Positions 45,207-49,312 of a stretch of 64,000 nucleotides of DNA are shown here, piece by piece. The position numbers were made by a program, and so were the translations under genes. The stretch spans positions 186,001 to 250,000 of the forward strand of contig CAJXPQ010000001.1 in NCBI GenBank assembly GCA_913058265.1. The letters run 5' to 3'. The DNA is from an uncultured Oligoflexia bacterium. Lineage in GTDB: Bacteria > Bdellovibrionota > Bacteriovoracia > Bacteriovoracales > Bacteriovoracaceae. Numbering within the stretch: the first letter of the stretch is position 1; the number at the start of each line of letters is the position of its first letter. Under the pieces are notes generated by a model that saw nothing but the letters and a program-made list of their open reading frames with translations, was not told the DNA's origin and did no database searches.

Positions 45207-45707
45207 CTAATAAAACCAATCACTCCAAAAACCGACTTCTTTATCATTTAGTTTTTTTAGAAATATGGTTAGCCAACGAGGCTCTATGGGTTTCTTGCTT
45301 AGACTAAACTTTGAATTATGGATAAGCTTATCCGCTTTGGCGCCATTACAGGGAGCGCAAGCAGCAACTATATTCTCCCAATCAGATGGACCGCCTAGAC
45401 TCTTAGGATAGACATGATCAAGGGTTAAATCTGCTGCTTTAAACTTTATATGACAGTACTGACAAGTAAAGTTATCTCTATAGAAAACATTCATCCTATT
45501 AAATTTAACTGTATGAATATCCCCTATTTTACAGAATAAGCGCATCACCTTAGGTAGCTTGTAAGAATCATTGGTAGATTTAATTTCAATATCTGAATGA
45601 TGTTCAACGACTTCTGCGCGCTCGGTAAAAAATAGTGAAAGCGCTTTCTTCCAGTCAATCATCTGGAGTGGATAATAAGTGGAATCTAAGAGCAAGGTCT
45701 GCCTCAT
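45207..45707 (-). CDS. HNH endonuclease-family protein
   Basis: A 166-residue soluble protein of the broadly conserved HNH type. After an N-terminal half (LLLDSTYYPLQMIDWKKAL) comes the zinc/HNH core: CQYC, LTLDHVYPKSLGGPSDWENIVAACAPCNGAKADK, with the catalytic His in LDH, Asn in ENIV and a second CxxC knuckle. Members stand alone in many genomes and may nick DNA in repair or act on phage DNA; the true substrate is unknown. GGGAG precedes the ATG. Confidence 0.92.
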   Translation of the reverse strand: MRQTLLLDSTYYPLQMIDWKKALSLFFTERAEVVEHHSDIEIKSTNDSYKLPKVMRLFCKIGDIHTVKFNRMNVFYRDNFTCQYCHIKFKAADLTLDHVYPKSLGGPSDWENIVAACAPCNGAKADKLIHNSKFSLSKKPIEPRWLTIFLKKLNDKEVGFWSDWFY

Positions 45708-45850: not shown

Positions 45851-45936
45851 GCGCGGGTGGTGGAATGGTAGACACGCTACGTTGAGGTCGTAGAGCCCGC
45901 AAGGGTGTGAGGGTTCAAGTCCCTTCTCGCGCACCA
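45851..45936 (+). tRNA. tRNA-Leu (anticodon GAG)
   Basis: 86 bases with CCA encoded. The acceptor arms GCGCGGG and CTCGCGC pair (one G-U). The anticodon stem CTACG/CGTAG holds loop TTGAGGT, so the anticodon is GAG, reading CUC/CUU Leu codons. A long variable arm (AGCCCGCAAGGGTGTG region) confirms a class II tRNA, and the T arm is GAGGGTTCAAGTCCCTT. Its 3' end is copied at 47159-47184. Confidence 0.97.
45911..45936 (+). repeat. attL-like direct repeat (tRNA 3' end)
   Basis: GGGTTCAAGTCCCTTCTCGC and the following GCACCA: the T arm, acceptor strand and CCA of tRNA-Leu. It matches 47159-47184 with one mismatch (C45916 versus A47164). Confidence 0.85.
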
Positions 45937-46041
45937 TTCTTTACACACTGTCTATAATTTGATCGATTTCTACAAAACCCAATATGTATTTTAAAATAGT
46001 TAGCTCCCTTTATTTGGCAGTGCTCTTGCGAATGTATCTGT

Positions 46042-47133
46042 ATGAAAAACTTAACTACAAAATTACTTGTAATGTCTATTTCACTCACTCTAGCTGGAAA
46101 TCTATATGCAAAAAATATATGTAGTACTAGCTTACCAACCATTATCTATCTAGATGATGTAGGTACTCAGGATCAGCCTGGAACTAGGATTAGTGGTAGA
46201 GATGATGCCAATGGTGTGCAAGACGTTGGGATACTGCTTAAATGGGAAAAAGAGATGGACCTAATAGCTATTGGCTCAACTAGTAGGTTTGGTAACAAAG
46301 ACCTATCCATGGAATTAGTTAGAAGAATAGTGTCAGCAAATAATCTATCAACTCCTGTTCTTGCGGGAAAAGACCTTATAGACTTTATAACTGTTAAGGC
46401 CAGAGAGATTGAGAGCTGTAATAATGGAAAAAAATTAGACATTGTTATTGGTGGTCATTGGGACGAAGTCATGTGTGCCCTAAGGTCTGATCCCTATATT
46501 GCTGATCTTATAAACATAACAGGGATTGGTAGTTGGAATATTAGAAATCAAGACTATTCAAACCCTAGAGACCTTGCATTTTGCATGAAACCAGGCGAAT
46601 TACTAAACCCTCAAAGAAGTTTTCAGGAGATAAGTTCAATCATGCCTGCAAATAGTATTTTCAGAATTAGTGATAAAAGGACATATCCAGGAACTGTTCC
46701 TGCTGGTATCCGTGACTTCATATGTCCAACGACTAAACACACGCTTCAGTTAATGAATAGAATCTATGATAACGGTATTGCACCGATGCTAAATAAAGTG
46801 CGAGACCCGAGTGATGGTATAATTATAAGTGATATAAGATCACCGTATGTTAAAGAGGCTATCGCCCTTGGTAATCTACAATGCTCCAATGTAAGAAACC
46901 AAAGTACCGGCCTAAAAATTAGAGTTGCTGATTTCTTGGCCGTCGCTCACGTACTCTCTAAAAAATATAAAACTAAAAATAGCGAAACAAAGAAACCTCT
47001 TAACTACTTAAGCAGAGATGAAATATACCCATATATCGAGGGTGATTTGAAATTCAAAAATAAAGTAGATATTGCATTTCTTATGCCCATTATAATGATG
47101 CTTCTTGAAGAGGATGAGCCTACAGCAGAATAA
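46042..47133 (+). CDS. Exported nucleoside-hydrolase-like protein
   Basis: A 363-residue protein with a signal peptide (NLYA-KN, ~24). The mature part resembles the IU-nucleoside hydrolase fold: IIYLDDVGTQDQPG at the place of the Asp-rich calcium site, then MDLIAIGSTSRFGNKDLSMELV and STPVLAGKD (cf. GITTVFGN ... PVYAG), and LDIVIGGHWDEVMCALRSDP, like the GPLTNLALAL block. The usual DTD-x-G-x-DD is altered, so activity is uncertain. It is the only gene in the tRNA-Leu islet. No clear ribosome binding site. A role in nucleoside scavenging from prey is inference. Confidence 0.6.
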   Translation: MKNLTTKLLVMSISLTLAGNLYAKNICSTSLPTIIYLDDVGTQDQPGTRISGRDDANGVQDVGILLKWEKEMDLIAIGSTSRFGNKDLSMELVRRIVSANNLSTPVLAGKDLIDFITVKAREIESCNNGKKLDIVIGGHWDEVMCALRSDPYIADLINITGIGSWNIRNQDYSNPRDLAFCMKPGELLNPQRSFQEISSIMPANSIFRISDKRTYPGTVPAGIRDFICPTTKHTLQLMNRIYDNGIAPMLNKVRDPSDGIIISDIRSPYVKEAIALGNLQCSNVRNQSTGLKIRVADFLAVAHVLSKKYKTKNSETKKPLNYLSRDEIYPYIEGDLKFKNKVDIAFLMPIIMMLLEEDEPTAE

Positions 47134-47158
47134 TTATGACCTTTATAAAAGCACCTGT

Positions 47159-47184
47159 GGGTTAAAGTCCCTTCTCGCGCACCA
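47159..47184 (+). repeat. attR-like direct repeat (copy of tRNA-Leu 3' end)
   Basis: 26 bases matching the tRNA 3' end with one change, and 20 of them continuous and exact including the CCA. The sequence before it does not match the rest of the tRNA, so it is a 3' fragment and not a second gene. Confidence 0.85.
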
Positions 47185-47227
47185 AGAACTTTTCAAATAT
47201 TCAAAGAATTATAATTAAGAGAAATAA

Positions 47228-47851
47228 TTATTCCTCAGAAAACCATCCTGCAAGATGGGTTCTGACTGTGCCATTAACCGGTGGGTTAACTCTATGTTCG
47301 AGCTTATCTGGAAGAACCCTAAACACAACTGCCTGTCCTAAGACATTGTTTCTAATTTTTTTTTCAGAACTATGGTTGGTTTTTTCACGAATGAGAAACT
47401 CTCCCCCCTCGAGTTCAGAGTTATACTTATCATCACAAAGGTTTACGCTAATAGAAAGCTTACGATTTTTAATTCTTCCATCATCATGCCAATCAAGAAG
47501 ATAGTTTTGATCTGTAAATTTGAAAATACGGCAATTAAAATTTGATATCTCTTCATCTGGTAGAAGCTTTGAGATAAAAGCATATAGGCCAGGGTTCTTC
47601 ATCAGTAAGGATACTTTTATGGCATGTTTTTTATTTAATATTTTTTCACGACCTTGAATATCAGGGGCTTCAGGGTAATCAAATTCATGATAGTTTTCAC
47701 TCTCCGAAACATCCTTTAAGAATTTGAGAGTTTCAGGTTGAAATATTTGAGGAAAAACATAGAACCAATCTCTTTCAATTGTCTCTTTTATAACTTGTAC
47801 ACTATCAAGAGATTGAATAGAAAAATGTTTATCTTCAAAATGAGTATACAT
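47228..47851 (-). CDS. 2OG-Fe(II) oxygenase family protein
   Basis: A 207-residue soluble protein of the 2-oxoglutarate/Fe(II) dioxygenase (P4H-like) fold. The facial triad is visible: LDWHDDGR (HxD), then LEHRVNPPVNGTVRTHLAGWF (distal His and the Arg that binds 2-oxoglutarate). The N-terminal part (YVFPQIFQPETLKFLKDV) fits the double-strand helix lead-in. The substrate is unknown. It lies just outside the islet's right repeat. Confidence 0.85.
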   Translation of the reverse strand: MYTHFEDKHFSIQSLDSVQVIKETIERDWFYVFPQIFQPETLKFLKDVSESENYHEFDYPEAPDIQGREKILNKKHAIKVSLLMKNPGLYAFISKLLPDEEISNFNCRIFKFTDQNYLLDWHDDGRIKNRKLSISVNLCDDKYNSELEGGEFLIREKTNHSSEKKIRNNVLGQAVVFRVLPDKLEHRVNPPVNGTVRTHLAGWFSEE

Positions 47852-47986: not shown

Positions 47987-49312
47987 ATGAAAATCATCTT
48001 GATCTTGGCGCTTTCATGCTCAAGCCTTGCCTCCGCTACAGCGAAATTTAAACTCATTAAGTCTTCAAACCCAGATGAATACTTAGCAAATCATATAAGT
48101 CTTTTTCTTAATAATGGGGAAATTGTCCACATTGATAAGTCAAAGCAAGAACAGCTTGAGATTATTCGTGATGCGATTCTAAACAATATGACTGTGACTC
48201 TTGAGAGACAGACAAATTTTGAGGATAAGTCAGACATTATAAAAAGTGTTTATGCTTTAGAAACTAGAAATATGTCCGTTGAAGTTGAAAATCAAAATAA
48301 TAAGGAAATGTTCTCTCTAGAAAGATTTAATAGAGTGAACTTTACCAGTTTAGATCCATTAGAAAGAAGTAATATAACGAGACTAAAATCTTATAGCGAT
48401 GCCGAAAGTCTTATGAATACTTTTAATGGTGATACCAGAATGAAGTCAGAATGTTATAACCGTGCCCATATGTGGACCTACGAATCTCTTGCCAAGCAAG
48501 GAATTACCCTAGGTAAGGTTTGGATCTTTTTTACCAGAAAGTATATCAGAGAATTTAGGCATAAGTGGTGGTTTCACGTAGCACCCTATACGAATGTTAA
48601 TGATGATAATGGAAAGTATATTCTTGATAGAGGATTTACAATGATTCCATACAATCTAGAGAACTGGAAAAACATGTTCATCAAGAACAAGGCCAGCTGT
48701 CCAGTTATTAAAGATTATAACCAATACGAAAACGATTATAAGAATGCCTATTGTTATTTAATCTACTCGAGTCAGTATTATTGGCAACCTTGGCAAATTG
48801 AAAATCTCTCTAATAAAAAAGAGCATAGATGGGGTTACAAGGGCTTTGAGTTGAAAAAGGCTTATAAAGATTCCCTTGGTAGAAGACATGGTAAATACCC
48901 CGAACTTAGAGCAAACCCGAACAGTGGAAATTCGACGACGCCCACAAACTCGAGAGTAGATTATAAACGGAGACTAGGTGTTGGAGAACAAGTCTATAAT
49001 ATTCAAAAAGATAATAAAAAAGTTAAAGTCTTATCAGTTCAAAGCGACGGAACATACACTATAAAGTTTCTCGAAGGGCCAAACTCTGGGAGAACAGGTA
49101 ATAACTGGGGAAGACATGCCCTAGCTGTAACAAATGGCTGTACTGGAACAATATGCGTTGGTGATAAGCTAATTAACCCCTCTCAGAACTCAGCAAAAGT
49201 TAGAGTTCTTGCAATTCAATTAAATGGTAACTTTGTACTTGAGTTCTTAAGTGGTCAACACCAAGGTAAAAGAGGAAATAATTGGCTTCGAAGTGAACTA
49301 AGACACCAATAA
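47987..49312 (+). CDS. Secreted protein-glutaminase-like enzyme with two C-terminal modules
   Basis: A 441-residue exported protein. Signal peptide ~1-19. A pro-like region (~20-145) precedes a domain like the Chryseobacterium protein glutaminase: Cys156 in SECYNRAHMWTYE, His197 in KWWFHVAPY and Asp214 in YILDRGF form the expected Cys-His-Asp triad. The enzyme would deamidate Gln side chains in proteins. Two C-terminal repeats of ~50 residues follow (VGEQVYNIQKDNKKVKVLSV ... GRTGNNWGRHAL and VGDKLINPSQNSAKVRVLAI ... GKRGNNWLRSEL), SH3-like and probably binding. Attack on prey proteins is inference. Confidence 0.8.
   Translation: MKIILILALSCSSLASATAKFKLIKSSNPDEYLANHISLFLNNGEIVHIDKSKQEQLEIIRDAILNNMTVTLERQTNFEDKSDIIKSVYALETRNMSVEVENQNNKEMFSLERFNRVNFTSLDPLERSNITRLKSYSDAESLMNTFNGDTRMKSECYNRAHMWTYESLAKQGITLGKVWIFFTRKYIREFRHKWWFHVAPYTNVNDDNGKYILDRGFTMIPYNLENWKNMFIKNKASCPVIKDYNQYENDYKNAYCYLIYSSQYYWQPWQIENLSNKKEHRWGYKGFELKKAYKDSLGRRHGKYPELRANPNSGNSTTPTNSRVDYKRRLGVGEQVYNIQKDNKKVKVLSVQSDGTYTIKFLEGPNSGRTGNNWGRHALAVTNGCTGTICVGDKLINPSQNSAKVRVLAIQLNGNFVLEFLSGQHQGKRGNNWLRSELRHQ

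Follow-up and report, generated by a model that had tools for sequence, protein, structure and literature searches.

The 64,000-nt stretch analysed here (the window; positions 186001-250000 of contig C1 in the 3.23-Mb draft source genome, G000) carries a tRNA-Leu gene, a second copy of the 3' end of that tRNA and one gene between the two, which raises the question of whether this islet entered by integration and, if so, how a unit with no integrase came to lie there. The tRNA genes in the window were called with ARAGORN. The intact tRNA-Leu(GAG) gene (45851-45936, plus strand) contains the presumed attL, the repeated sequence being its 3' 29 nt. As the preliminary description had stated, its terminal 20 nt are duplicated exactly at 47165-47184, 1,248 bp downstream; over the full 29 nt, 27 positions are identical between 45908-45936 and the displaced copy at 47156-47184 (plus strand), the presumed attR. 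When the whole 3.23-Mb genome was scanned for the 20-mer with up to three mismatches, only these two sites and the 3' end of tRNA-Leu(TAG) on another contig were found. With about 6e-6 exact chance copies of the 20-mer expected in the genome, coincidence is no explanation and the repeat is real. Of the two differences in the displaced copy, one changes TTCAA to TTAAA in the T-loop, in line with what is expected of a copy released from tRNA function.

Only one convincing gene lies between the repeats, an ORF of 363 codons at 46042-47133 (plus strand). It is preceded by 105 bp of free sequence (45937-46041, plus strand) and followed by 22 bp (47134-47155, plus strand), and the islet hence has no space in which an integrase could fit. 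Inspection of the ORF list and searches of Pfam and PHROGs gave no integrase match and no transfer genes in the interior. The content first described, one exported gene and no integrase, was thus borne out, the encoded protein having a signal-like N-terminus. On the left, the chromosomal flank includes an HNH-domain gene (45207-45707, minus strand; assigned by Pfam) that is kept beside the tRNA in relatives. On the right lies a 2OG-Fe(II) oxygenase gene (47228-47851, minus strand; also assigned by Pfam) with no close orthologue in seven relatives. This variable right flank also encodes a 441-aa protein with a Gln_deamidase_2 domain (PF18626) at 47987-49312. Composition, proposed earlier as a check, was ordinary in the islet (GC 0.362 versus 0.358), its tetranucleotide distance being exceeded by 272 of 314 windows. 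The islet is thus host-like and not foreign in GC and tetranucleotide content.

The cargo protein is a near-orphan. The preliminary description had called it nucleoside-hydrolase-like, but no match was found in Pfam, NCBIfam, PHROGs, PADLOC or PDB, and even at E ≤ 1 there was no Pfam match to PF01156 (inosine-uridine nucleoside hydrolase). What is left of that assignment is a transitive link: a 642-aa protein encoded on contig C12 (L011) shares a 30%-identical segment with the islet protein and itself weakly matches PF01156 (E 0.0017). A nucleoside-hydrolase likeness is therefore possible, though indirect, and the protein may possibly have a distant nucleoside-hydrolase fold. Two AlphaFold2 models (mean pLDDT 36 and 39) were too poor for a structure search. 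The gene was absent from the 128 other genomes of the family (about 129 in all) and the 368 other genomes of the phylum that formed the comparison set, many of which are drafts, and nothing was found in collections of phages, plasmids, viral contigs and named genomes at the sensitivity used. The lack of matches in the phage, plasmid and viral-contig collections speaks against a phage satellite. The gene has one close relative, a broken paralogue in the same genome (C4:174682-175582; L009:1203-2121), which is 58-61% identical, has lost about 60 mid-gene codons and has undergone a change of frame. The ~45 bp directly upstream of the islet ORF resemble the stretch that precedes this paralogue, and no tRNA repeat is present there. 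The paralogue adjoins an S74-chaperone ORF and a gene of the endonuclease/exonuclease/phosphatase family.

Comparison of the locus among relatives showed that the left flank is kept up to the tRNA in seven genomes, and in all seven synteny stops at the tRNA 3' end. The right flank, from 47185 onward, was collinear in none of the relatives compared. An empty site joining 45936 to 47185, which the preliminary description had suggested looking for, was not found in any relative; since no right flank is collinear, such a site is not demonstrable. Nor were the gene and both repeats seen in all relatives, the outcome that had been held to indicate an old duplication. Among ~30 tRNA-Leu(GAG) loci in relatives, none had a second 3' end at the distance seen in the islet, and several seeming second copies in the family scan proved to be other tRNA-Leu isoacceptors.

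Two relatives nevertheless carry altered ends of this same tRNA. In G125 (L046:1731-15918, contig C20), an insertion of ~14 kb beside the same HNH gene splits the tRNA-Leu at the anticodon loop, and the ancestral-type 5' and 3' halves flank a complete tRNA-Leu of another allele, so that the element seems to bring a replacement tRNA. In an ORF adjoining that tRNA, HxxR and LGH..Y can be made out by eye in the pattern of a tyrosine-recombinase C-terminus, though the ORF had no match in Pfam or PHROGs. In G002 (L044:10040-10211, contig C8), a 25-nt second tRNA-Leu 3' end lies 86 bp downstream and extends 6 nt beyond the CCA. Together, the split in G125 and the second 3' end in G002 mark tRNA-Leu(GAG) as a hot spot. 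The duplicate ends in G002 enclose a ~60-bp hairpin-bearing stretch, perhaps the scar of an excised or deleted unit. The orientation of the tRNA relative to the HNH gene is inverted in both G001 and G002.

To place the islet among the other tRNA loci of its own genome, 32 of the 34 tRNAs were examined to see whether the 3' end of each recurs downstream of it. Besides tRNA-Leu, one case was found, that of tRNA-Ser(GGA) on contig C6 (L140:15088-15177, minus strand), behind which three integrase-less units, U1-U3, lie in tandem (L140:10561-15177). The 15-nt core of this tRNA, CCCTTGTTCTCCGCC, is repeated 1,061 and 1,977 bp downstream; there is also a third copy, at about L140:10562, that has diverged. 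The units differ in cargo, which comprises an RDD-family protein in U1, a 207-aa membrane protein in U2, and a 654-aa HELGH-motif protein with a 129-aa protein in U3. They have a common right end (about 76-82% identity over 117-154 nt); a common left end is seen as well in U1 and U2 (81% over 175 nt). A match between the left end of U1 and a locus near a Xer-like gene fell within that gene and was dropped as chance. Elsewhere in the genome, two tRNA-Leu(CAA) genes lie 5.7 kb apart in the same orientation (L138:13458-19273, contig C2) with a Fur-like regulator and seeming metal-transport genes between them, and this region may be another island.

Units of this kind are widespread in the Bacteriovoracaceae and are recognised by an arm of ~160 nt that ends in the 3' end of a tRNA wherever one is in reach. 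The arm was modelled first as R1 and then as R2, built on 30 arms, and the E-values of the models are rough. With R2 at E ≤ 1e-4, arms were found in 67 of 369 phylum genomes, 61 of them among the ~129 genomes of the family and 6 outside it, the latter scoring only about 26-31 bits. The preliminary remark that small integrase-less units in tRNA genes are rarely described in predatory bacteria thus overlooked how common they are in this family. Arms ending in tRNA-Glu were found in G030, G031, G032 and G038, and arms ending in tRNA-Ser(GGA) in G000, G070 and G028. A fourth arm in G000 (L177:3023-3178, contig C7), near the contig start, ends in CCCTTCGCTCCCGCCA, as does that at tRNA-Asp in G036; the tRNA to which it belongs was not located among the typed tRNAs, the two at contig ends being untyped. 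Arrays reach seven cores behind tRNA-Glu(TTC), which is followed in G031 (L173:5566-16512, contig C37) by seven copies of its 3' end, six of them with an arm, and in G030 (L174:4926-13642, contig C166) by four copies. Gene content varies from unit to unit within each array. Between G030 and G031, an acetyltransferase unit shows 91% identity, whereas the units adjoining it differ. Cassette units measure about 0.25-3.6 kb, and their cargo includes acetyltransferases, a hybrid histidine kinase, a globin with Rrf2, and an Na/Pi cotransporter. The cargo gave only weak histidine-kinase matches in PADLOC, and a role as defence genes was set aside on that basis.

Two further features recur. An intrinsic terminator follows each of the 13 tRNA ends and cores inspected in the G030 and G031 arrays, and nearly all arms begin with a direct repeat whose copies are 10-11 bp apart. 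The repeated word varies by lineage (TTGCTCAC, TGTACAC, TTGATCCA, TGTTCCGG and others), but its copies within one arm agree, at a mean of 7.48 of 8 positions versus 4.81 in shuffles (largest 5.21). This agreement is the trace that a lineage-specific arm-binding recombinase would be predicted to leave. No dyad symmetry was evident by eye in the aligned arms.

Candidates for such a recombinase lie beside some arms. In four relatives, a tyrosine recombinase of ~400-419 aa is encoded directly 3' of a tRNA, in convergent orientation, and an arm and core close the element 5-7.6 kb away. These autonomous elements occupy tRNA-Ser(CGA) in G040 (L251:2026-11700), tRNA-Glu in G047 and G053 (L264:7890-14146 and L261:3395-8671) and tRNA-Asp in G036 (L267:7986-15564). 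Their arms were missed by the narrow R1 model and recovered with R2 and wider stretches. A similar integrase is found near an arm in G059 and G073. The alignment of these integrases retains the tyrosine-recombinase residues R, K, HxxR and Y, with some members varying at some positions. The source genome has a member of its own, a 447-aa integrase (C1:102097-103437) with close relatives in Bacteriovoracaceae assemblies, which places the family. This integrase belongs to an element inserted at the mutM 5' end (L068:2600-11540; C1:94600-103540). The element is flanked by a 14-bp repeat, has TTGGCAT as the word at each of its ends and holds cargo that resembles that of U3 by inspection. The same arm closes the integrase-bearing elements at tRNA-Ser, -Glu and -Asp, which points to a helper integrase; by adjacency, related integrases may move the integrase-less units. 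It is quite possible, though we would stop short of calling it probable, that the Bacteriovoracaceae capture genes at tRNAs in a dispersed, integron-like manner, units of arm, core and terminator being moved in trans by integrases of ~400-447 aa and stacked in tandem behind tRNA-Glu, tRNA-Ser and others, the arm words changing together with the lineage of the integrase. In that case the tRNA-Leu islet would belong to the same system as a unit that has degenerated or has a different target.

The islet itself has one feature of these cassettes, a repeated tRNA 3'-end core with no integrase inside, and its repeat (20 nt exact, 29 nt in all) is longer than the usual cassette core of ~16 nt. No R2 match was obtained in the window at E 0.1, and with filters off the best arm score was 7.7 bits and off site, the 22-bp right end being without an arm. 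The terminator scan found no intrinsic terminator on the plus strand after 45936, the end of the tRNA, or after 47184. With neither arm nor terminator, the islet is not a member of the arm-cassette class. It resembles an integrase-less tRNA unit and is better filed as a CIME-like remnant (CIME, cis-mobilizable element) left by another integrase.

We therefore consider it probable that the islet is an integrase-less unit derived from tyrosine-recombinase integration at the 3' end of tRNA-Leu(GAG), and most likely a decayed, CIME-like remnant. The case for integration is that the exact 20-nt repeat lies at the tRNA 3' end and is specific in the genome, that the gene is absent in relatives and synteny is lost exactly at the tRNA, that the same tRNA is split in G125 and has a second 3' end in G002, and that tyrosine-recombinase integration at tRNA 3' ends is common in the Bacteriovoracaceae. 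The integration proposed in the preliminary description is upheld by these observations of repeat, cargo, missing integrase, absence and synteny break, but it gains nothing from composition, which is host-like, or from an empty site; also against it, no integrase in the genome is known for this site, and the arm cassettes, its nearest precedent there, have features that the islet lacks. The recombinase, the sequence of steps and the later decay are inferred, as follows. Recombination inside the T-arm/acceptor part would have left the tRNA whole (attL) and displaced the former 3' end 1,248 bp downstream (attR). The integrase and most cargo would then have been lost by decay, one exported-protein gene remaining under what may be its own promoter, and the islet could presumably move again only on arrival of a matching integrase. 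No parent ICE or IME with the attachment site of the islet was seen in the genomes compared.

It is rather unlikely that the islet is instead a functional minimal cassette, a complete mobile substrate excised and inserted by a separate integrase in trans. Integrase-less tRNA units with conserved ends are present in the same genome and family, related integrases exist, one of them in G000, and the layout is tight, the gene nearly filling the space between the repeats. Yet even with all filters off there is no arm inside or alongside the islet, the terminator that follows all 13 tRNA ends and cores in the two tRNA-Glu arrays is missing, and no second copy of the unit lies between tRNA repeats, the C4 paralogue having none. 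An origin with no recombinase at all, in which illegitimate recombination duplicated a tRNA 3' fragment or a rearrangement brought an orphan gene beside the tRNA, would place the islet at a family-wide rearrangement breakpoint, in keeping with a right flank collinear with no relative, the inversion of the tRNA relative to the HNH gene in G001 and G002, and the ordinary composition. This origin is unlikely too, for the duplicated piece stops exactly at the tRNA CCA and keeps the same orientation, and in relatives the ends of this tRNA are likewise found split or duplicated. The broken C4 copy shows that the gene family has been in the lineage for some time, as would be the case if the gene were ancestral to the genus, lost in the others, and the repeat incidental; but the 128 other genomes of the family hold no trace of the gene and chance is not expected to produce an exact repeat of 20 nt, which makes that history very improbable.

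Taken by itself, the islet would be a minor case of an integrase-less remnant at a tRNA gene, and the wider cassette finding matters more. Arm, core, terminator and helper integrase together form a testable sequence definition of a route by which this family of predatory bacteria and its relatives may acquire genes one at a time downstream of tRNAs. They provide a ready explanation for strain-specific orphan genes in such positions, and may offer compact pairs of att site and integrase with distinct arm words.

Among known systems, CIMEs and their tandem accretion have already been described (PMC5704250). The islet is like them in having att-like repeats at the 3' end of a target gene with neither integrase nor transfer genes; it differs in being a single gene of 1.2 kb with no identified parent ICE or IME, and its mobilisation is hypothetical. 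In the additive flexible genomic islands, as far as the available parts of the two reports describe them, variable cassettes likewise lie behind a tRNA with copies of its 3' end between them (PMC10872708, PMC4119200): the last 20 bp of tRNA-Lys recur in fGI-2 of Methylophilaceae (PMC10872708), and fGI1 of Alteromonas is an additive island at a tRNA (PMC4119200). Those parts describe no common attachment arm or helper integrase, whereas units in the Bacteriovoracaceae combine a ~160-nt arm, which contains a paired direct repeat, with a terminator after the core and a family of related integrases. Tycheposons are described as elements at tRNA genes that measure 4-200 kb and carry cargo together with a tyrosine recombinase (PMC10872708). 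They are comparable as tRNA-anchored, tyrosine-recombinase-based carriers, but the islet (1.2 kb) and the cassettes (0.25-3.6 kb) are smaller and have no recombinase, and the islet falls outside that definition. CALINs and integron cassettes also form arrays of small cassettes with no integrase of their own (PMC11389934), but the cores of the arm cassettes are tRNA 3' ends that follow a long arm, with no dyad symmetry evident by eye. SGI1 shares tandem insertion at one attachment site, but is a large mobilizable island (PMC2297512) and not a series of single-gene units that differ in what they carry. The Bacteriovorax/Halobacteriovorax literature covered gave no account of the arm system, most subscription papers lying outside the search. 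Cassette islands at tRNA genes are known; a form of them with a defined arm and a helper family seems to be new.
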